Part shown: in pieces, positions 4,743-19,089 of the stretch | Layout of the letters: the number at the start of each line of letters is the position of its first letter | How positions within the stretch are numbered: position 1 is the first letter of the stretch | Notes under the pieces: generated by a model | Told to the model about the DNA's origin: nothing | Database searches by the model: none | The model's input: only the letters and a program-made list of their open reading frames with translations | Position numbers and translations under genes: made by a program | Assembly (NCBI GenBank): GCA_951813575.1 | Contig: OX638375.1 | Span: forward strand, 558,001-622,000 | Source: Candidatus Binatia bacterium | Lineage (GTDB): Bacteria; Desulfobacterota; Binatia; UBA9968; JAJDTQ01 | Direction: 5' to 3' | DNA: 64,000 nucleotides

Positions 4743-6230
4743 TCACTTCAGAAGCGGGAAAGACCAGGGGCTCATCTCCTCCGCGGTCCGACCCAGCGCG
4801 TCCCAGTCCTGGAGGCGGTCCCAAGCGGACTCCGCCGCCTCCTGGGCCTGCCGCCGCAGGGACTCGATGTCCACTCCGGGTATCCGCCCCTCCTCCATCC
4901 GCACCTCGCCGTCGACGATGACCGTCCGGACGTCGTCGCCGATGCCGCATTCCACCAAGCTCTTGATAGGATCACGCACCGGCCCGTACCTCAGCGTGCC
5001 CCTTCCGGAAATGTCCACGATGATGATGTCGGCACGGGCACCCGGCGCCAGCCGGCCGAGATCGTCGCGCCCGAGCGCACGGGCGCCGCCCAGAGTGGCG
5101 GCCTCGAACACGTCGGCGGCGGTGGCCGCGCGCAGGTTGCGCCCGATGACCTTGCCGAAGTACGACGCCACCCGCATCTGCATCATGAAGTCCCGCGGGT
5201 AGGTGTCGCTCCCCAGGGCGATGTTGACGCCGGCCTTGCGGTACCGTTCCCAGGAGTCGAGGCACCGGCCCCGGCGGGCGATGTTGACCGGGCAGTGGGA
5301 GATGGACGCGCCGTATTCGCCCATGAGCTCCACGTCCCGGCCGCCCGCGAAGTTCAACTGGGGGTTCTCGGCCACCAGGTTTCCGTGGCCGATGGTGAGG
5401 TCGGGGCCCAGAAGGCCCACGGACTCCAGCAGCTCCACCGGGGTCATGCGGTGCTCCGTCACCAGTTCGTAGAACTCGATGACGTTGTAGGCCGCGTGGG
5501 TCGATATCGGCACCTTGAGCTCGTCCGCCGCCTTCCGCGTCGCCCGCAGCAGGTCCGGCGTGCAGGTCTCGGCTTCCCGCGGTATCAGGATGCCCCGGAC
5601 CCGGTCGCCGCAACTGCCCTCCACCCTCTTGATGAAGTCCACGGCGCCCTCGAACTCCCGCCAGCCCGCGGCCTCGTCCAGCGCGCGCTTGAGCCGCCCC
5701 TTGTCGTCGGCCACCCAGCGGCCGGAGTCGAAGCCGGGGCCCAGGTAGGCCCGGGCGCCGAGCCGGTCCACTTCCTTGAGCAGCCCTTCCTGCACCCGGA
5801 GCTGGCTGCCGATCTCCATGAACGTGGTGACGCCGTTGCGCAGCAACTCGGCCACGGTGAAGGTGGCGTGCAGGTCCGTGCCCTCGGTGGCGCCGGCCTG
5901 GTCCGGCCTCGTGTAGCGGGGATCGCCCGCCGGCCGTGTCCCCTCCCGGGGCACGCTGATCTCCAGGAACGGCTGGCCGAAATAGTCCGGCCGCCCGGTG
6001 TCCGTGATCAGCCGGTGCGAGGCCCGGTGGCCGCCGTGGACGTGCATGTCGATGAAACCCGGCGCCACCAGCATGCCGCCGGCGTCGATCTCACGGTCCA
6101 CGTCCCCGTCGAAGCCGGCGCCCACGTGCAGGATGACCCCGTCCTCGAACACCACCACGCCGTCGCGCAGCAGCGCGTGGGTTTCGCCCTGAAAACCGAC
6201 GATCCAGCCGCCGCGAATCAATGTGCGCAT
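4743..6230 (-). CDS. Amidohydrolase superfamily, TrzN/AtzA or guanine-deaminase-like
   Basis: Metal-dependent hydrolase of 495 residues. The HVH metal motif (FIDMHVHGG) is near residue 62, further ligand histidines are in PISTHAAYN and TIGHGN, and the catalytic Asp is in ALGSDTYPRD. The small N- and C-terminal beta segments wrap round the barrel as in the cytosine-deaminase-like group (subtype III, one metal expected). Family members deaminate or dechlorinate N-heterocycles; the substrate here is unknown. It is the last gene of the long minus-strand catabolic array, 36 bases after the ornithine-cyclodeaminase-like gene. Confidence 0.82.
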   Translation of the reverse strand: MRTLIRGGWIVGFQGETHALLRDGVVVFEDGVILHVGAGFDGDVDREIDAGGMLVAPGFIDMHVHGGHRASHRLITDTGRPDYFGQPFLEISVPREGTRPAGDPRYTRPDQAGATEGTDLHATFTVAELLRNGVTTFMEIGSQLRVQEGLLKEVDRLGARAYLGPGFDSGRWVADDKGRLKRALDEAAGWREFEGAVDFIKRVEGSCGDRVRGILIPREAETCTPDLLRATRKAADELKVPISTHAAYNVIEFYELVTEHRMTPVELLESVGLLGPDLTIGHGNLVAENPQLNFAGGRDVELMGEYGASISHCPVNIARRGRCLDSWERYRKAGVNIALGSDTYPRDFMMQMRVASYFGKVIGRNLRAATAADVFEAATLGGARALGRDDLGRLAPGARADIIIVDISGRGTLRYGPVRDPIKSLVECGIGDDVRTVIVDGEVRMEEGRIPGVDIESLRRQAQEAAESAWDRLQDWDALGRTAEEMSPWSFPLLK

Positions 6231-9989: not shown

Positions 9990-11357
9990 TCACCCGGTCA
10001 ACTTGCTCATGAGCCGGCGCGCGCGCTCCACCGCGCCGGGCTCGATGGAGAGGGTCGAGGCGAAGTCGCCCAGCGGCTTGGTGGCGTCGATGCCCATCTT
10101 CGCGGTGACGGCGTCGGTGGCCGACGGGTCCAGCAATGTCCCCATGGCCTCGTCGATGATGAAGACGTCCCTGTTGGCCTGCATCCGGGTGGCGATGGCC
10201 CACAACACCTGTTCCTCGTCGAAGATGTCGACGTCGTCATCCACCACCACCACCAGCTTGACGTAGTGGTCGGCGCCCATGACGCTGAAGATGGCCTGCT
10301 TCCCCTGCCCCTCGGCGGTCTTGCGCAGGGACACGTAGCAGTGGAAGCTGCCGATGCCGGACCGCACCGGCACGTGCACCGCCTTGAGGTTGGGAATGGT
10401 CTTCCCCAGCACGTTGGTGAACTCCACCTCCCGGGGCATGGACAGGCAGCGGCAATGCTCCATGCTGTCGCCGCCGTTGATGTCCTGGTAGACGGCGCCG
10501 TTGCGGTAGTGCAGCGCGGTGGCCTCGAAGACGTTCTCGGTGCTCCGGCTCGAAGCGTACCCCGTGAACTCCCCGAACGGCCCTTCCTTCTCTCGAACGT
10601 CCTTGAGGATCCGCCCCTCGATGACGATCTCCGACCACCGGGGCACGTTGACGTCCACGGTGGCGCAAGGCGTCAACTCCAGGGGTTCGCCCAGCAACCC
10701 TCCCTGCAGCGCGAACTTCTCCGTTCCCGCCGGCGGCAAGGTCAAGGCGCCCAGGGAGATCAGCGGGTGCACGCCGATGCAGACCGCGGCTTCCAGGGAC
10801 TCGCCCTTCTCCTCCGCGCGCCGGAAGTACTCGAACATGCGCCGCCGGGAGTGCAGGCTCACGCCCAGCTTGCGCGGCCCCTTGAGCTGCATGCGATGGA
10901 ACCCCACCGTGCTCATGTCCGACTGCGGGTCCCGCGCCACTACCAGCCCGGCGGTGACATAGGGGCCGCCGTCCTGCTCGAAATGGGTCAGAATGGGGAG
11001 CTGTCCCAGGTCCACCGACTCGCCCAGCCGGCTGTTCTCCCGGAAGGGAGCATCCTTCAATACCTTGGGTGGCACGGGTCGCTGGATCCGCTCCTTGAAC
11101 TCGTGCACCAACCCTTCTTCCGAAGCGCCGAAGGCCCAGGCCAGCCGCGGACGGTGGGCCAGCACGTTGGCCGCCATGGTGAACTCGCTCCCGGTGATGT
11201 TCCGGAACATCACCGCCGGACACGACGGCAGCCGCTCCGCCTCCATGGTCAGGGCCGTGGCCTCGAACTCCCTGGACACCGGCTCCTCGACCTCGAGGAA
11301 CTGCTCGGGGCATTCGTTCTTCAATCGCTTCAAGAAACTCTGTAGATCCTGTGGCAC
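9990..11357 (-). CDS. UbiD-family prenylated-FMN decarboxylase (second of a pair)
   Basis: UbiD-like protein of 455 residues with the intact EGPFGEFTGY motif (both catalytic Glu) and the candidate conserved Arg in VGFHRMQLKG. It begins at a GTG with AAGGAG six bases upstream. It precedes the 8408-9985 gene in the transcript and is clearly diverged from it, so the pair is not a recent duplication. The 116-base gap before it holds a dRS3-like palindrome. The substrate is unknown; neighbours point to an aromatic or heteroaromatic acid. Confidence 0.9.
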   Translation of the reverse strand: MPQDLQSFLKRLKNECPEQFLEVEEPVSREFEATALTMEAERLPSCPAVMFRNITGSEFTMAANVLAHRPRLAWAFGASEEGLVHEFKERIQRPVPPKVLKDAPFRENSRLGESVDLGQLPILTHFEQDGGPYVTAGLVVARDPQSDMSTVGFHRMQLKGPRKLGVSLHSRRRMFEYFRRAEEKGESLEAAVCIGVHPLISLGALTLPPAGTEKFALQGGLLGEPLELTPCATVDVNVPRWSEIVIEGRILKDVREKEGPFGEFTGYASSRSTENVFEATALHYRNGAVYQDINGGDSMEHCRCLSMPREVEFTNVLGKTIPNLKAVHVPVRSGIGSFHCYVSLRKTAEGQGKQAIFSVMGADHYVKLVVVVDDDVDIFDEEQVLWAIATRMQANRDVFIIDEAMGTLLDPSATDAVTAKMGIDATKPLGDFASTLSIEPGAVERARRLMSKLTG

Positions 11358-11473: not shown

Positions 11474-12703
11474 TCACGACACCCTTCTCGCTACCGCGTC
11501 GATAGAGCATTCGAGCGGCTCCGGCGGATCGACGGCCTGCAACGCCGCGTCGACGTCCTTGAGACCGTGGCCCGTGGAGAGGACCACGACGCGCTCGCCG
11601 GACGGGACCTCGCCCTGGTCCGCCAGCTTCACGAGCGCCGCCACCGCCGACGCCGCGGCCGGCTCCGCGAACAGTCCGGCGGTCTTGCCCAGCAGCGCCA
11701 TGGCCTCGAGGATCTCGCCGTCGGACACGCTTACCGCGCACCCGCCGGAAGCCTTCAGGTCCTGCACCGCCATCACCCCGTTCCGCGGCAACGCGACGCT
11801 GATGCTGTCCGCCAGGGTGTCTTCCACCACGGCACGGATGGTGCCGTCGCCGTCGAAGGCCTGCTTGATGGATTGGGAGCCCTCGGCCTGGGCCGCCACC
11901 AGCCGCGGCAGGCGGGAGATCCACCCCACCCGGTAGAGATCGGTGAACCCTTTCCATACGCCGCTCAGGATACAGCCGTCGCCGGTGGCGACGATGACCG
12001 TGTCCGGCGGCTCCCAGCCGAGCTGCTCGGCGATCTCCAGCGCCACGGTCTTCTTCCCCTCCACCGTGTAGGGATTGTAGCCGGTGTTGCGGTTGTACCA
12101 CCCGAAACGGTCGCTGGCCTCGACGCAGAGGCTGAAGGCTTCGGAATAGGTGCCACGGACGGAGAGCACGTCCGCCCCGAAGATCAGAAGCTGCGCGACC
12201 TTGGCCCGGGGCGCGGTTTCGGGCACGAAGATATGGCACGGCAGCTCCAGGGCCGCGGAAAGGCACGCCAGCGACGCGCCGGCGTTGCCGGTGGATGCGG
12301 CGGCGAACTCCCGGCGCCCCAGCTCCCGCCCCTTGAGCAGCACCAGGGAACTGGCCCGGTCCTTCAGCGAGGCGGACGGGTTGGCGGTATCATCCTTGAT
12401 CCAGAGGCGCTCCAGGCCCAGGGCCTTTCTCAGGCCGGGCACCGGATAGAGCGGCGTCCCTCCCACCGCCAGCGGGAACTCGACCCGGCCGGCGGCCAGC
12501 GGCAGCAGCGGCAGATAGCGCCAGTGGTCCCGGAACGGCAGGTTGGCCATGCCGTCGCGGCCGGCCGACGCCCGGATCCGGTCATAGTCGTACGACACCC
12601 GCAGGGTGCCGAGCTCGCCGCATTGGGGGCAACTGTATTGGCTGGGACCTTCCCGGTACACGGCGCTGCAGAGGACGCAGGTCAGGCTTTCGGGAAGAGG
12701 CAT
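11474..12703 (-). CDS. Threonine-synthase-like PLP enzyme with N-terminal zinc ribbon
   Basis: Fold-type II PLP enzyme of 409 residues. A CxxC pair at residues 9/12 and another at 25/28 make a rubredoxin-like zinc ribbon. The PLP lysine is probably Lys114 in SASLKDRASS, with the glycine-rich phosphate loop later (ATGDGCILSG). This architecture is called threonine synthase in many genomes, but relatives act on other beta- or gamma-substituted amino acids. The setting, next to a cysteine-synthase-like gene in a catabolic array and away from thrA/thrB, makes a degradative lyase as likely. It follows the 12722-13756 gene by 18 bases. Confidence 0.8.
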   Translation of the reverse strand: MPLPESLTCVLCSAVYREGPSQYSCPQCGELGTLRVSYDYDRIRASAGRDGMANLPFRDHWRYLPLLPLAAGRVEFPLAVGGTPLYPVPGLRKALGLERLWIKDDTANPSASLKDRASSLVLLKGRELGRREFAAASTGNAGASLACLSAALELPCHIFVPETAPRAKVAQLLIFGADVLSVRGTYSEAFSLCVEASDRFGWYNRNTGYNPYTVEGKKTVALEIAEQLGWEPPDTVIVATGDGCILSGVWKGFTDLYRVGWISRLPRLVAAQAEGSQSIKQAFDGDGTIRAVVEDTLADSISVALPRNGVMAVQDLKASGGCAVSVSDGEILEAMALLGKTAGLFAEPAAASAVAALVKLADQGEVPSGERVVVLSTGHGLKDVDAALQAVDPPEPLECSIDAVARRVS

Positions 12704-12721: not shown

Positions 12722-13756
12722 TCACCGCACGATGTGCAGGTTCCGGCGCGCCAGATTGGCCTTGTCTTCTTCACGAATGGGGTGCTCCCGGTCGGGGATC
12801 TCGGTGGTCTGGTCCTTTCCGAACAGCGGCGTGGAGAAGTAGCGCATGCCGGTGTCGTTGATCATGGTGACGATCATCTTCGTGGACGGCAACGCCGCCG
12901 ACAGCTTGTTGGCCGCGGCCACGTTGCAGCCGGACGAGATGCCGCACAAGACCCCCTCTTCCCGGGCCAGGCGCCGGGCCATGGCGATGGAGTCCTCGGA
13001 GGAGACGGTCACCACGCCGTCCACGTAGTCCAGGTCCAGGTTCTCCGGGATGAAGCCGTCGCCGATGCCCTCGATGGCGTGGGGCCCCCAGGTGCCGCCC
13101 GACAGGATCGGACACTCCGCCGGCTCCACGGCGTAAATCTTCGCGTCCGGGTTTTGCTCCTTCAGGTACTTGCCGACGCCGGACACGGTGCCGCCGCTGC
13201 CCTGGGAGGCCACGAACACGTCCACCTGCCCCTCGGTCTGGTGCCAGATCTCGGGCCCGGTGGTCTCGTAGTGGGCGGCGATGTTGTCCCGGTTGGCGAA
13301 CTGGCCGGGTTCCCAGTAGCGGTCCGGCTCGGCGTGCTTCAATTCCTCCACCTTCTCCAGGCACAGGTCCACGTCGCTCTCCGCCCCGGGGGTCAGCACC
13401 AGCTCCGCGCCGTAGGCGCGCATGGAGGCCTTGCGCTCCTCGCTCATGCCCTCGGGCATCACCACCACCACCGGGTAGCCGCACACCGCGCCGATCATGG
13501 AGGTGGCGATGCCGGTGCTGCCGGTGGAGGCTTCCAGGATGGTCATGCCGGGCTTGAGGTCTCCCCGCTCCTCCGCGCTCCGCACCATGCGCCGCAGGAT
13601 CCGGTCCTTGAGGCTCGACGACGGGTTCATGAACTCGAGCTTGCCGCACAACCCCTGCGGTCCCGCTGCCACCTTGCGCAGCCGGAGCAGCGGCGTCAGG
13701 CCCGCCGCCTCGGTGATGTCTTCCGCGATCCGTCCCCGGGATGCCCAGTCCGTCAT
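12722..13756 (-). CDS. Cysteine synthase / cystathionine beta-synthase family PLP enzyme
   Basis: PLP enzyme of 344 residues with the CysK-type motifs: PSSSLKDR (Lys50 as Schiff base), EASTGSTG near residue 76, and the phosphate loop SQGSGGTVSG. It may make cysteine from O-acetylserine, or act on another beta-substituted serine as SbnA and related enzymes do. No cysE lies nearby. The frame is open to 13879, but the ATG at 13756 begins the family N-terminus. Co-directional with the threonine-synthase-like gene (18-base gap) and the DUF6282 gene upstream. Confidence 0.83.
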   Translation of the reverse strand: MTDWASRGRIAEDITEAAGLTPLLRLRKVAAGPQGLCGKLEFMNPSSSLKDRILRRMVRSAEERGDLKPGMTILEASTGSTGIATSMIGAVCGYPVVVVMPEGMSEERKASMRAYGAELVLTPGAESDVDLCLEKVEELKHAEPDRYWEPGQFANRDNIAAHYETTGPEIWHQTEGQVDVFVASQGSGGTVSGVGKYLKEQNPDAKIYAVEPAECPILSGGTWGPHAIEGIGDGFIPENLDLDYVDGVVTVSSEDSIAMARRLAREEGVLCGISSGCNVAAANKLSAALPSTKMIVTMINDTGMRYFSTPLFGKDQTTEIPDREHPIREEDKANLARRNLHIVR

Positions 13757-13790
13757 GGTTGTGCTCTCTCCTGTCCGGGCCGATGCCGCG

Positions 13791-14663
13791 TCAGAGGCCC
13801 AGCATCGCCCGGGGGTTGTCGACGATGAGCTTCTCCACGTTCCTGGGAGAGACTCCCTTTTCGTAGAGCCCCTGAGCATAGAGCCACAACGCCTCCGGGG
13901 GCAGCGGGTTGTGGGACTGGCCGGTGTCGCTCATGACCAGGCAGTTGTCGAAGCCCATGGAGTCCATGATGCCCTTGGTGAACTCCAGGTTCACGTACGC
14001 CCACATGGGCGAGATGGTGCAGTAGCCGAACTCGCCGATGGCGCCGTAGCGCATCATCTGCTTCAGGAAGTCCAGGTTCATGCCCGCGGGTACCCGGAAG
14101 TAGGGGTGGGTGATGAGGATCTTCTTCACCCCGCGCTCGTGGGCCGCCTTCACCAGCAGCTCGATCTCGGCGAGGGAGAGGTGCGCGGTGCCGAGGATGG
14201 CGTCGTGCTTGGCGATGAGCTCCAGCACCACCAGGGCCTCGTTCACCACCTTGCCGTCCTTGACCGCGGAGATGGGGTCGCCCCACACGAAGTCCGAGCC
14301 GCTGGTCTGGGTGTCGTAGCTGCCCCGGGCGCCGTGGATATCCACGTGATGGGCGGCGTCGATGGTGGGCATCCAGACCTCCTTGGCGCCCAGCCGGAGG
14401 GCCACCTCGGCCGCGGCCGGGTTGATGCCGCCGACGAACTGGTTCATCACCACGCCGCCGAACACCTTGATGTCCGGGAACTCCTTCTGGATCAGGTAGG
14501 CCCGGCTCACCGTGCTCTCGTGGTGGCACTTCAGCACGATGGCCGCCATCCCCGCCTCCGAGGCGGCCTTCACGGCCTCCCGGTCATCCACCCGCCGCTG
14601 GAACACGCACGGATACGAGTGTACGTGCAGGTCCACGGCGCCGTCGAGCTTCATGAATTCCAT
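13791..14663 (-). CDS. DUF6282 family, PHP/amidohydrolase-like metal protein
   Basis: Protein of 290 residues that I recognise as DUF6282, of unknown function. It has a metallo-hydrolase look: DLHVHSYP at residues 10-17, LKCHHEST, AAHHVDIHG, ITHPYFRVP and SDTGQSHNP each supply histidines or acids that could bind metal, in the order seen in TIM-barrel hydrolases. The start ATG has GAGGAGG about 7 bases upstream. It sits 12 bases after the maleate-isomerase-like gene in the same direction. Confidence 0.75.
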   Translation of the reverse strand: MEFMKLDGAVDLHVHSYPCVFQRRVDDREAVKAASEAGMAAIVLKCHHESTVSRAYLIQKEFPDIKVFGGVVMNQFVGGINPAAAEVALRLGAKEVWMPTIDAAHHVDIHGARGSYDTQTSGSDFVWGDPISAVKDGKVVNEALVVLELIAKHDAILGTAHLSLAEIELLVKAAHERGVKKILITHPYFRVPAGMNLDFLKQMMRYGAIGEFGYCTISPMWAYVNLEFTKGIMDSMGFDNCLVMSDTGQSHNPLPPEALWLYAQGLYEKGVSPRNVEKLIVDNPRAMLGL

Positions 14664-14675
14664 CGGGTTTCCTCC

Positions 14676-15365
14676 TCAACCCATGCCCACCAGCTCCACG
14701 TCCAGTTGCCGGCCCACGGCTTCGAGGGCGGCCTGGTTGCTGGTGACGATGGGCATGTCGTACAGCCTCTTCAGATCCGGCAGCGTCGCCACCGCCTGGT
14801 AGTTGGTGCAGGAGATGAACAGGGCGTCCACCGGTGGCCGGGCGCCCAGCTTCTCCCGGGCGAAGGCCAGGATCTCCGGCGGCTCCACCAGCGCCAGGTT
14901 GAAGTTGACGCTGATCCCCATGCCGTGGATCGAAGCCACCTCGATGCCGTCGTCCTCCACGCTGGCCTTGATTCGGACGTTGAGATCCTCGATATAGGGC
15001 GTGAGCACGGCCACCCGCCGGGCATTGAGCGACATGAGCTTGCGCCGCACCGACTCGATGACGCTGACGGTGGGCTTGCCGGCGACGTCCGAGATGCGGC
15101 GGCACAGCTCGGCGTCGTAGGCATTGCCCCGCAGCGCACCGGCGCTGGTGCAGCCGAACACCATCAGGTCCGGCTTGGCGGTGGCCACGTCGGCGGCCGC
15201 CGGCACGCAGTGCTCGTCGAGCATCTCCTCCTCGCCCTTGACCGTGGTGGCCTCCATATACATCCGGCCGGTGTGGACGGTGGCCGACGCCGGCAGGTGA
15301 CGGTAGAAATCCACCTCCATGACCGTGTTCGACGAAGGGACGAGCAGTCCTACGCGTTGACCCAA
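14676..15365 (-). CDS. Maleate isomerase / arylmalonate decarboxylase-like Asp/Glu racemase family protein
   Basis: Protein of 229 residues in the Asp/Glu racemase superfamily. The two catalytic cysteines are in place, Cys72 (VFGCTSAG) and Cys186 (FISCTNYQA), and the N-terminus VGLLVPSSNTVMEVDF matches maleate isomerases, with the conserved Asn near residue 13. Maleate cis-trans isomerase (NicE in nicotinate degradation) is the best guess; arylmalonate decarboxylase or a related enzyme is the alternative. The TTG start has GGGAGG seven bases upstream. It lies 16 bases after the molybdenum hydroxylase genes. Confidence 0.8.
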   Translation of the reverse strand: MGQRVGLLVPSSNTVMEVDFYRHLPASATVHTGRMYMEATTVKGEEEMLDEHCVPAAADVATAKPDLMVFGCTSAGALRGNAYDAELCRRISDVAGKPTVSVIESVRRKLMSLNARRVAVLTPYIEDLNVRIKASVEDDGIEVASIHGMGISVNFNLALVEPPEILAFAREKLGARPPVDALFISCTNYQAVATLPDLKRLYDMPIVTSNQAALEAVGRQLDVELVGMG

Positions 15366-15381: not shown

Positions 15382-16395
15382 TCAGTCTTCTTCGAACTCG
15401 CCGCGGGCCCTGGCCTCCTGGATGGCGAAGAAGACCCGTTCCGGCGTGATGGGAGTCTCGGTGATGCGAATGCCGATGGCGTCGTAGATGGCGTTGAGGA
15501 TGGCCGGCGTCGTGGGGATGGTGGCCGGCTCGGCCACGCCCTTGGCGCCGAACGGACCCCTGGGATCGGGCACCTCCACGATCTCGCACTCGATGTCGGG
15601 CACGTCCATGGACGTGGGCACGAGATAGAACGCCAGTGATGCCGTGCGCGGCACGCCGTTCTCCAGGATGTGCTGTTCGTAGAGGGCGTAGCCCAGGCCC
15701 ATGGTGGCGCCGCCCTCGATCTGCCCCTCCACCGCCACCGGGTTGATGGCCTTGCCGGCGTCGGTGGCCGACACCAGCTTGGTCAACCGGATGCGGCCGG
15801 TCTCGGTGTCCACTTCCACCTCGGCCAACTGGGTCGCCCAGCCGTAGGTGGCGTAGGCGTCGCCCTGGGAGGTCTCCGGGTCCACGTCCTGGGTCGTGTT
15901 GTCGTGCCAGCCCCAGGCGGCCGCCCGGCGTCCGTGGAAGTGGAGCTGATGCGCCACCTTGCCCACCGAAACCAGCGGCCGGTCGGTGCCGGTTTCGCAC
16001 ACCTCGCCCCGGCGCACGTGCAGGTTCTCCTTCGGACATTCCAGCATGCGCGAGGCCATGTCCAGGATCTGCCCGCGCAGCTCCTGGGCCGCGTTCTGCA
16101 CCGCCACGCCCTGGACGAAGGTGGCGCGGCTGCCCGACGTGGGCCCCGCGTCCGGCGTGCTGCCGGTATCGGCGGCCACCACGCGGATCTGGTCGGGCTC
16201 GATGCCGAGCTCCTCCGCGGCCACCTGGGTCACCACGGTCATGACCCCCTGGCCCATGTCGCACGCGCCCGAGTAGACCGTGGTGGTGCCGTCCTCGGCC
16301 ATCTCGATCTCGGCCGAGCCGATGTCGGCCCGGCTGAAACCGTAGCCGATGCCGTAGTACATGGAGCCGATGCCCAAGCCTTTTCTTGTTGCCAT
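15382..16395 (-). CDS. Molybdenum hydroxylase large subunit, C-terminal half (separate gene)
   Basis: Xanthine-dehydrogenase family Mo-binding subunit, second Mo-cofactor domain only, 337 residues. It starts RKGLGIGSMYYGIGYG, where the fused family enters this domain, and ends with GAKGVAEPA; Glu289 there matches the catalytic base of the family. The first half is the gene at 16416-17723. The two are in different frames, 20 bases apart, with an in-frame TGA at 16404-16402 just before this ATG. Together they make about 772 residues, a normal full large subunit, so nothing seems lost. A sequencing frameshift is the alternative explanation. Confidence 0.85.
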   Translation of the reverse strand: MATRKGLGIGSMYYGIGYGFSRADIGSAEIEMAEDGTTTVYSGACDMGQGVMTVVTQVAAEELGIEPDQIRVVAADTGSTPDAGPTSGSRATFVQGVAVQNAAQELRGQILDMASRMLECPKENLHVRRGEVCETGTDRPLVSVGKVAHQLHFHGRRAAAWGWHDNTTQDVDPETSQGDAYATYGWATQLAEVEVDTETGRIRLTKLVSATDAGKAINPVAVEGQIEGGATMGLGYALYEQHILENGVPRTASLAFYLVPTSMDVPDIECEIVEVPDPRGPFGAKGVAEPATIPTTPAILNAIYDAIGIRITETPITPERVFFAIQEARARGEFEED

Positions 16396-16415
16396 GGCCG
16401 TTCAGCTCACAAGCC

Positions 16416-17723
16416 TCACGCGTGAGGCCGGTTGAAGCGCAGGTCGTGGGCGCTCATGTAGTCCTTGATCCGCTGCAGCGTCGCCTCGATGCCGCAGCCC
16501 TCGTTCATCAACTGTCCGGTGGAGGAGGCGAGCCCCGGCTTGAGGCAGTTCTTGATCCGGAACTCCAGCGGCGACATGCCGAGCCGGTGGGCCAACTGGT
16601 CCATCTGCGACTCGTGGGCCACCGCCGCCTGCATCACCCCGAAGCCTCTCATGGCACCGGAGACGAGATTGTTGGTGTAGAGCGTGTAGGTGTCCACCCG
16701 GATGTTGGGCACGTCATAGGGGCCGGTGGCGTGGATGCCCGCCTTCTTGATCACGTAGGCGCCGAGGGAGACGCCCGCGCCGGTGTCGCCGTAGATGTCC
16801 CCGTCCAGGAACGTCAGCAGTCCGTCCTTGCGGGCGCCGGTGCGGAAGTTCATGGCCATGGGGTGGCGCTTGGTGTTGGCGATGAGGGACTCTTCCCGGG
16901 TGTAGACCAGGCGCACGGGCCGGCGCGTCTTCAGCGCCAGCAGGCCCACGTGGATCTCCGCCGTGATGTCGTCCTTGCGTCCGAAGCCGCCGCCGATGGG
17001 GGCCTGGATCACCCGTACCTTGTTCATGGCCAGATCCAGGGCCGGGGCGATCTGACGCCGGTCCCGATAGGGGTACTGGGTCCCCACCAGGATGTTCAGC
17101 ACGCCGGAGGGATCGACATAGGCCAGGCCCGCCTCCGGCTCCATGGGGACGTGATCCATGCGATGGGTGTGGTAGGCGTTCTCCACGATTACGTCCGACT
17201 CCTCGATACCCTTCTCCAGGTCGCCCTTGCGCACGGTCGTGTGCTGGAACACGTTGCCGCCCTCGTGGATCGCCGGCGCCATCGGGTCCAGGGCGTCCTC
17301 GTAGGTCAGAATGGGGCGCAGGGGCTCGAGATCCACCTTGATCTTCGCCACCGCCTCCTCGGCGGCTTCCTCGTCCTCGGCCGCCACCAGCGCCAGGGCG
17401 TCGCCCGCGGACCGCACCTTGTCGTCGGCCAGCGCCCGCTGGTCCGGCACGGCCAAACCGTAACGGTTGGTTCCGGGCACGTCCGACGCGGTGAGCACCG
17501 CCGCCACCCCCGGCACCCGGGCGGCATCCTTGGTGTCGATGTTCCGGATCACCCCGTGGGGCGCTCCCGCCCACAGGATCTTGGCATGGAGCATGCCGGG
17601 CACCACCATGTCGCCCACGTATTCGGTGGCCCCCAGCGCCTTCTCCAGCGCGTCGGGCTTGGTGACGTTCTTGCCGATCCAGTGATATGCGCCGGTCGTC
17701 TCCGGGGACGTGTCTTCGCTCAT
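16416..17723 (-). CDS. Molybdenum hydroxylase large subunit, N-terminal half (separate gene)
   Basis: 435 residues holding the aldehyde-oxidase a/b hammerhead domain (about 20-130) and the first Mo-cofactor domain (about 150-425). GGGFGRKDD at 244-252 and SGAMRGFGVMQ near 360 are the molybdopterin-contact motifs of the family. It ends in the linker after RIKDYMSAHDLRF, exactly between the two Mo-cofactor domains. The ATG overlaps the 2Fe-2S subunit stop as ATGA. Works with the C-half, 2Fe-2S and FAD subunits to hydroxylate a ring or aldehyde carbon with water, electrons going out through iron-sulphur clusters to FAD. Confidence 0.87.
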   Translation of the reverse strand: MSEDTSPETTGAYHWIGKNVTKPDALEKALGATEYVGDMVVPGMLHAKILWAGAPHGVIRNIDTKDAARVPGVAAVLTASDVPGTNRYGLAVPDQRALADDKVRSAGDALALVAAEDEEAAEEAVAKIKVDLEPLRPILTYEDALDPMAPAIHEGGNVFQHTTVRKGDLEKGIEESDVIVENAYHTHRMDHVPMEPEAGLAYVDPSGVLNILVGTQYPYRDRRQIAPALDLAMNKVRVIQAPIGGGFGRKDDITAEIHVGLLALKTRRPVRLVYTREESLIANTKRHPMAMNFRTGARKDGLLTFLDGDIYGDTGAGVSLGAYVIKKAGIHATGPYDVPNIRVDTYTLYTNNLVSGAMRGFGVMQAAVAHESQMDQLAHRLGMSPLEFRIKNCLKPGLASSTGQLMNEGCGIEATLQRIKDYMSAHDLRFNRPHA

Positions 17724-18199
17724 GACGCCGCCCTCCCAACCTCTTCCGCGGCCGCTCGGACCGCCTTGACGATCTTGCCGTATCCCGTGCAGCGGCAGAT
17801 GTTTCCGGAAATGGCGAAGCGGATCTCCTCGTCGGTGGGATGCGGATTCTCCTGGAGCAGCGCGTAGGCGCTCATGATCATTCCGGGAGTGCAGTAGCCG
17901 CACTGGACGCCGCCCTGCTCCACCATCTGTCGTTGCACCGGGTGGGGAGTCCCGTCTCCGGCCAACGCTTCGATGGTGACGATATCCCGGCCCACGGCGT
18001 CCGGAACCAGCACCAGGCAGGACACCACCGGCCGGCCGTTCAGCAACACCGTGCACGAGCCACATTCGGCCTCGTTGCAGCCCTTCTTGCTGCCGGTGAG
18101 CCGGAGGTTCTCCCGCAGCACGTCCAGCAACGACTCGTGGGGCTCGGCCTCGGTTTCCCTGGTTTCCCCGTTCACCCGTAGTGCGTAGCGTTGTCTCAT
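17720..18199 (-). CDS. Molybdenum hydroxylase 2Fe-2S subunit
   Basis: Small subunit of a xanthine-dehydrogenase-type enzyme, 159 residues. It binds two 2Fe-2S clusters: the plant-ferredoxin type at Cys41, Cys46, Cys49 and Cys61, and the helical type at Cys100, Cys103, Cys135 and Cys137. All eight cysteines are present. It overlaps both neighbours by four bases, giving the order FAD subunit, 2Fe-2S subunit, Mo subunit. The frame extends upstream to 18325 but ATG 18199 starts the normal ferredoxin domain. Confidence 0.93.
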   Translation of the reverse strand: MRQRYALRVNGETRETEAEPHESLLDVLRENLRLTGSKKGCNEAECGSCTVLLNGRPVVSCLVLVPDAVGRDIVTIEALAGDGTPHPVQRQMVEQGGVQCGYCTPGMIMSAYALLQENPHPTDEEIRFAISGNICRCTGYGKIVKAVRAAAEEVGRAAS

Positions 18200-19089
18200 A
18201 CCGTTTCCGTCTCGGAGCGGGCCCGGGCCCGCTCCATTGCCTGCCGCAGCACGCGTCTCACCAGAATCCCCACCAGTTCCCTGCGGTAGGCCGCCGACCC
18301 GCGGATGTCGTCGATGGGTTGGCATTCGTCCATGGCCGCACGGCCCGCCCGCGCCACCACATCGGGCGTCAACTCCTTCTCCAGCACGAACTCCTCGGCC
18401 CTGAGAGCCCGCACGGGCGTGGGCGCCACCGCGCCCAGCGCGATCCGCGCCGCCGCCACCCTTTCGCCGGCCGCATCCAGCGTCACCGCCGCCGCCGCGC
18501 TGGCGATGGCGATGTCCATGGCCGACCGCGGCGTGAAGCGCTCGAAGGCGTCGCCGGTGCAGGGGGCCGGCTCCGGCACCTCCACCGCGAGAAGCAGTCC
18601 GCCCGTACCCAGCACCGACGCGCCAGGCCCTTCGAAGAAATTCTCCACCGGCACCGTTTCCAGCCGGGACTCAGGGGTACGCACGCTGGCCGTCGCTCCC
18701 AACGCCACCAGCGGCGGCGCCGTGTCCGCCGACGGCGAGGCGTTGCACAGGTTGCCGCCCACGCTGGCGATGTTCCTCAACTGCAGCGACCCCACCACCC
18801 GAAGCGCCTCGGTGATGGAGGGGAAACGCTCGCCCACGGCGGCCGCGGTCTCAAGGTCGCGCATGGGCGTGCAGGCCCCGAGCCGAAGCCCCTCGCCGGG
18901 CTCGCGCGCCCAGCCCCAAAGCTCCGGGATCCGCTTCAGGTTCACCAGGCCCTGGGTGCGGACCACCCGACGGCGCAACTGTATGACGATGTCGGTGCCG
19001 CCGGCAAGCGGTTTACGGGCGCCCTTTCCCTCCCGCAGCAACTCGCCCGCTTCTTCCAGCGTGGCCGGCTCGAAATAGTCAAACCGCAT
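18196..19089 (-). CDS. Molybdenum hydroxylase FAD-binding subunit
   Basis: Medium subunit of 297 residues in the CoxM/XdhB family. The FAD contacts are in PLAGGTDIVIQ near residue 30 and IASVGGNLCNASPSAD near 110. No 4Fe-4S insert is seen, which argues against a 4-hydroxybenzoyl-CoA reductase type and for an ordinary hydroxylase or dehydrogenase. First gene of the three-subunit block, 19 bases after the LLM oxidoreductase gene. Confidence 0.92.
   Translation of the reverse strand: MRFDYFEPATLEEAGELLREGKGARKPLAGGTDIVIQLRRRVVRTQGLVNLKRIPELWGWAREPGEGLRLGACTPMRDLETAAAVGERFPSITEALRVVGSLQLRNIASVGGNLCNASPSADTAPPLVALGATASVRTPESRLETVPVENFFEGPGASVLGTGGLLLAVEVPEPAPCTGDAFERFTPRSAMDIAIASAAAAVTLDAAGERVAAARIALGAVAPTPVRALRAEEFVLEKELTPDVVARAGRAAMDECQPIDDIRGSAAYRRELVGILVRRVLRQAMERARARSETETV

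Follow-up and report, generated by a model that had tools for sequence, protein, structure and literature searches.

A predicted four-subunit molybdenum hydroxylase with a large subunit split into two genes in a Candidatus Binatia bacterium, compared with nicotinate dehydrogenase of Eubacterium barkeri

Nicotinate dehydrogenase (NDH) of Eubacterium barkeri is encoded by four genes, with products of 23, 33, 37, and 50 kD, and has two Mo-binding proteins, i.e., NdhL and NdhM (PMC10331938). In its solved structure, 3HRD, chains A and B are named the large (NdhL) and medium (NdhM) molybdopterin subunits. The xxRGFG loop and a base glutamate were described as active-site features (PMC8305194), and YqeB was described as a marker of selenium-dependent molybdenum hydroxylases (PMC11448449).

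A stretch of 64,000 nucleotides from a Candidatus Binatia genome, hereafter the window, was analyzed. Four genes were found on its minus strand in the order F, S, L, M (Table 1), and this order, with F as the first gene, is kept in relatives. S and L overlap by 4 nt (ATGA), from the stop of S to the start of L. The Ald_Xan_dh_C, MoCoBD_1, MoCoBD_2, Fer2/Fer2_2, and FAD_binding_5/CO_deh_flav_C domains of the xanthine oxidase family were found within this one cluster, all above the Pfam gathering score. L contains Ald_Xan_dh_C and a complete MoCoBD_1 (profile 2-244 of 244), and M contains MoCoBD_2 (profile 24-283 of 283). The active-site features of the family were located in both genes, i.e., Gln216 and AMRGFG (residues 357-362) in the first Mo domain, in L, and Tyr14 and the catalytic Glu289 in M, the latter in the second Mo domain. 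The motif GGGFGRKDD is at residue 244 of L, and GAKGVAEP, which includes Glu289, is in M. NCBIfam equivalog cut-offs were reached by neither L nor M.

Table 1. Features of the split molybdenum hydroxylase cluster, in positions of the window
Feature	Position	Strand	Remarks
F, FAD-binding subunit	18196..19089	-	297 aa; Pfam FAD_binding_5 E 1e-43, CO_deh_flav_C E 2e-26
S, 2x[2Fe-2S] subunit	17720..18205	-	161 aa, from ATG at 18205; Pfam Fer2_2 2e-34, Fer2 7e-9
L, N-terminal half of Mo subunit	17723-16416	-	435 aa; NdhL-like; a/b hammerhead and MoCoBD_1
L/M intergenic stretch, 20 nt	16396..16415	-	holds M-frame stop at 16404-16402
M, C-terminal half of Mo subunit	16395-15382	-	337 aa; NdhM-like; MoCoBD_2
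Arylmalonate-decarboxylase/Asp-Glu-racemase-like protein	14676..15365	-	Pfam Amdase 4e-24; next in cluster after M
DUF6282 protein	13791..14663	-	Pfam 5e-67; conserved neighbour
Cysteine-synthase-like PLP protein	12722..13762	-	conserved neighbour, also at two Chloroflexi loci
Threonine-synthase-like PLP protein	11474..12703	-	conserved neighbour

L ends with TGA at 16418-16416, within the interdomain linker, and M lies in a different frame, which has its own in-frame TGA ahead of the M start. Together, L and M comprise 772 aa. An earlier sequence-only reading had given the L and M coordinates and frames, the 20-base gap, the separate stop of M, the motifs, and the total length, and all of these were exact to the base. 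It had also placed the cut between the two Mo-cofactor domains, which agrees with the Pfam result, i.e., MoCoBD_1 whole in L and MoCoBD_2 in M.

A comparison with all solved structures placed 3HRD chain A first for L (E 1.9e-112; runner-up 3.5e-57) and 3HRD chain B first for M (E 2.8e-71; runner-up 3.7e-54), with a wide margin in both cases. The matches are nearly full length, with identities of 43.8% for L and 41.9% for M. Residues of NDH map one to one to the window: Gln208 and Tyr13, active-site residues of NDH, correspond to Gln216 of L and Tyr14 of M, AFRGFG corresponds to AMRGFG in L, and Glu289 to Glu289 in M. Because each half best matches a separate 3HRD subunit and the E. barkeri enzyme has four genes, the window layout is, judged by homology, the already known four-subunit layout of NDH, in which a natural split was known before. 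The earlier claim that large subunits of this family are normally one chain holds for most of the family, with 3HRD as a solved exception. In relatives, too, the large subunit is encoded by two genes divided between MoCoBD_1 and MoCoBD_2, as in the NdhFSLM layout.

The products of F, S, L, and M almost certainly assemble into a single molybdenum hydroxylase of four subunits that belongs to the xanthine oxidase family, with L and M as separate polypeptides and the Mo-cofactor between them. By homology, we infer the assembly, cofactor, and electron path as follows. L and M would form jointly what most relatives have as one chain, with L supplying the hammerhead and the first Mo-cofactor domain and M supplying the second, which carries the catalytic glutamate. 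The Mo-cofactor would sit between L and M as it does between NdhL and NdhM. The substrate would receive a hydroxyl from water at Mo, and the electrons would pass to the two 2Fe-2S clusters of S and then to the FAD of F. Translation of M probably occurs by termination-reinitiation, in which ribosomes ending L would restart 20 nt downstream; this agrees with the short L/M gap in the window and with the ATGA overlaps of relatives. A point against the four-subunit reading is that no obvious Shine-Dalgarno sequence was found ahead of M at the usual distance in the L/M junction of the window.

The source genome is one contig of 4.2 Mb with 40 MoCoBD_2 genes, 39 of which lie in open frames of at least 742 aa; only M lies in a frame of 339, so the short frame is not a matter of chance. 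This number of MoCoBD_2 genes is a very large xanthine-dehydrogenase-family set for 4.2 Mb, and most congeners carry approximately 30 or more. A search for the same split in relatives, which had been suggested as a check, recovered it both within the genus and in phyla far from it, and the close relatives are not fused. A separate L precedes M in all other genomes of the genus (8/8), with M identities of 92-96%. The L/M junctions among these genomes are +20, +15, +7, and -10 nt, i.e., a 20-nt gap in several congeners, as in the window, a 15-nt gap in locus L035, where L and M share a frame with a stop between them, a 7-nt gap in L037 and L065, and a 10-nt overlap in L032, L039, L061, and L064. 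The relative frames of L and M also vary between congeners.

At 74-78% identity, the same split was found in a groundwater deltaproteobacterial MAG (L067/L040; 77-78%) and in three Chloroflexi records. The MAG and two of the Chloroflexi loci (L068, L069; 74-75%) have a 4-nt ATGA overlap. In a Dehalococcoidia chromosome (L070, 6294-7333), 1,037 nt lie between L and M and hold two unrelated ORFs (181 and 119 aa), neither of which matched a Pfam family. The split was also found in Desulfosporosinus and a Clostridiales genome, with L identities of 48-49%; Desulfosporosinus and its class have many split copies, nearly all with an ATGA or GTGA L/M overlap. Across the genus and beyond, dN/dS was 0.12-0.16 for L and 0.09-0.18 for M. 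Both genes are therefore maintained, since synonymous change exceeds amino-acid change approximately six- to eleven-fold in each. Errors would not recur so independently with differing junctions among congeners, so these comparisons identify the L/M split as a real, old, and selected gene split rather than an assembly error. The sequence-only reading had left a choice between a natural four-gene enzyme and an assembly error; the occurrence in all genus genomes examined and in distant phyla bears out the former and not the latter.

A single gene broken by an error of assembly or sequencing would agree with the halves summing to one normal subunit and with the other 39 paralogues of the genome being unbroken. 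This explanation is nevertheless extremely improbable. No single indel joins the two frames, because the L-frame stop (16418) is upstream of the M-frame stop (16404): a reading shifted ahead of 16418 would be ended by the stop at 16404, and a shift after 16418 is too late. A joining indel of one or two bases, considered in the sequence-only reading, is thus impossible. Independent assemblies of the eight congeners and of other phyla also show separate genes with differing junctions. A recent disruption that left a decaying pseudogene has nothing in its favor beyond the split itself, and the strong purifying selection on L and M across the genus and beyond and the retention of all catalytic residues make it hardly credible. 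Programmed frameshifting or readthrough, which would yield a fused chain alongside the separate ones, could join the frames at the 10-nt overlaps of some relatives (L032, L039). In the window, however, the junction has stops in both frames and both must be passed, a kilobase separates L and M in L070, and gap lengths and relative frames vary among congeners; this explanation is very unlikely.

A true nicotinate dehydrogenase with a Mo-Se cofactor would fit the nearest solved relative, 3HRD, with its same subunit layout, and the presence of SelD in the genome. However, no enamidase or other nicotinate-pathway gene was found beside the split enzyme of the window, whereas L072 of Desulfosporosinus has an enamidase (2VUN, E 1.5e-161) as well as a transporter next to it, which makes a nicotinate operon likely there. 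In the Binatia genome, only a more distant enamidase homologue (42%) was found; it lies approximately 1.6 Mb away and approximately 5 kb from a fused Mo-hydroxylase. YqeB was not found in the genome, a result that makes a labile selenium ligand less likely, and the window enzyme and 3HRD lie in separate clades of the tree described below. Nicotinate as the substrate and selenium as a ligand are thus not supported, and this identity is improbable. The SelD gene (L150, G000:C1:2675632-2676558) has one in-frame TGA, probably for selenocysteine.

The conserved neighbours of the split enzyme, i.e., the Amdase-like protein, the DUF6282 protein, the two PLP proteins, a CoA transferase, and an LLM oxidoreductase, suggest a breakdown pathway. 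The Amdase-like gene is kept across the genus and in L067. A UbiD-type decarboxylase gene is also near the cluster (window 9990-11357, minus strand). In the 77% relative, two such genes are in tandem near the cluster (L147:11139-14171), and GrdB-like and glycine-reductase-B-like genes precede its F gene.

A quick tree of 62 rows was made and the split or fused label was mapped on it. At least four changes of this label, in whichever direction, are required on the tree. L076 and L141 join the clade of the window, and 3HRD lies elsewhere. Two fused large subunits, L138 and L143, are within a split clade; they have a longer linker that still carries the M start motif MK(R/K)RG, and they are likely products of refusion. 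As these two fused members lie inside a split clade, the split is dispensable for the fold. A single clade of all split rows with L138 and L143 was rejected under the model (p-AU 0.005, with long branches present and a short search). In another genome of the phylum (L146:3311-5050 and 5040-6059), a single chain of 579 aa joins the 2Fe-2S subunit and the L half and M is separate, which divides the same enzyme in another way. The chances seem evenly balanced for the following combined reading: the split enzymes from the genus, the groundwater bacterium, and marine Chloroflexi, whose Amdase-like, DUF6282, and PLP neighbours are conserved, form a clade that is an enzyme in its own right and acts on a new substrate in a breakdown pathway not yet described, and the L/M split arose or was reversed more than once in the family.

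Since the split is real, annotators should neither merge L and M nor flag them as frameshifted. The four-subunit layout, structurally known from one clostridial enzyme, is thereby widened to Binatia-type bacteria and Chloroflexi. About thirty distinct split relatives and as many fused ones provide a set for studying how the genes of a well-understood enzyme divide and fuse again, and the uncharacterised conserved gene cluster around the split enzyme has some value of its own.

The window enzyme is alike to E. barkeri NDH (NdhF, NdhS, NdhL, NdhM) in its four subunits, in a Mo subunit cut at the same interdomain linker, in halves of 42-44% identity, and in the same Gln, Tyr, Glu, and xxRGFG active-site residues. 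In E. barkeri, the genes are likewise ordered F-S-L-M, which agrees with their sequence of mention in PMC10331938. The window enzyme differs from NDH in its clade, in lacking YqeB and nicotinate-pathway neighbours, and in having Amdase-like, DUF6282, and PLP proteins, a CoA transferase, an LLM oxidoreductase, and UbiD as neighbours instead. The split Mo-hydroxylases of the Desulfosporosinus class, e.g., L072, share the F-S-L-M order and separate L and M, but mostly have a 4-nt ATGA/GTGA L/M overlap and are approximately 47-48% identical to the window enzyme, and L072 differs further in its likely nicotinate operon, beside an enamidase and a transporter. Three-subunit enzymes of the xanthine dehydrogenase, 4-hydroxybenzoyl-CoA reductase, and PucD type have the same domains and cofactor chain, whereas their large subunit is one chain.
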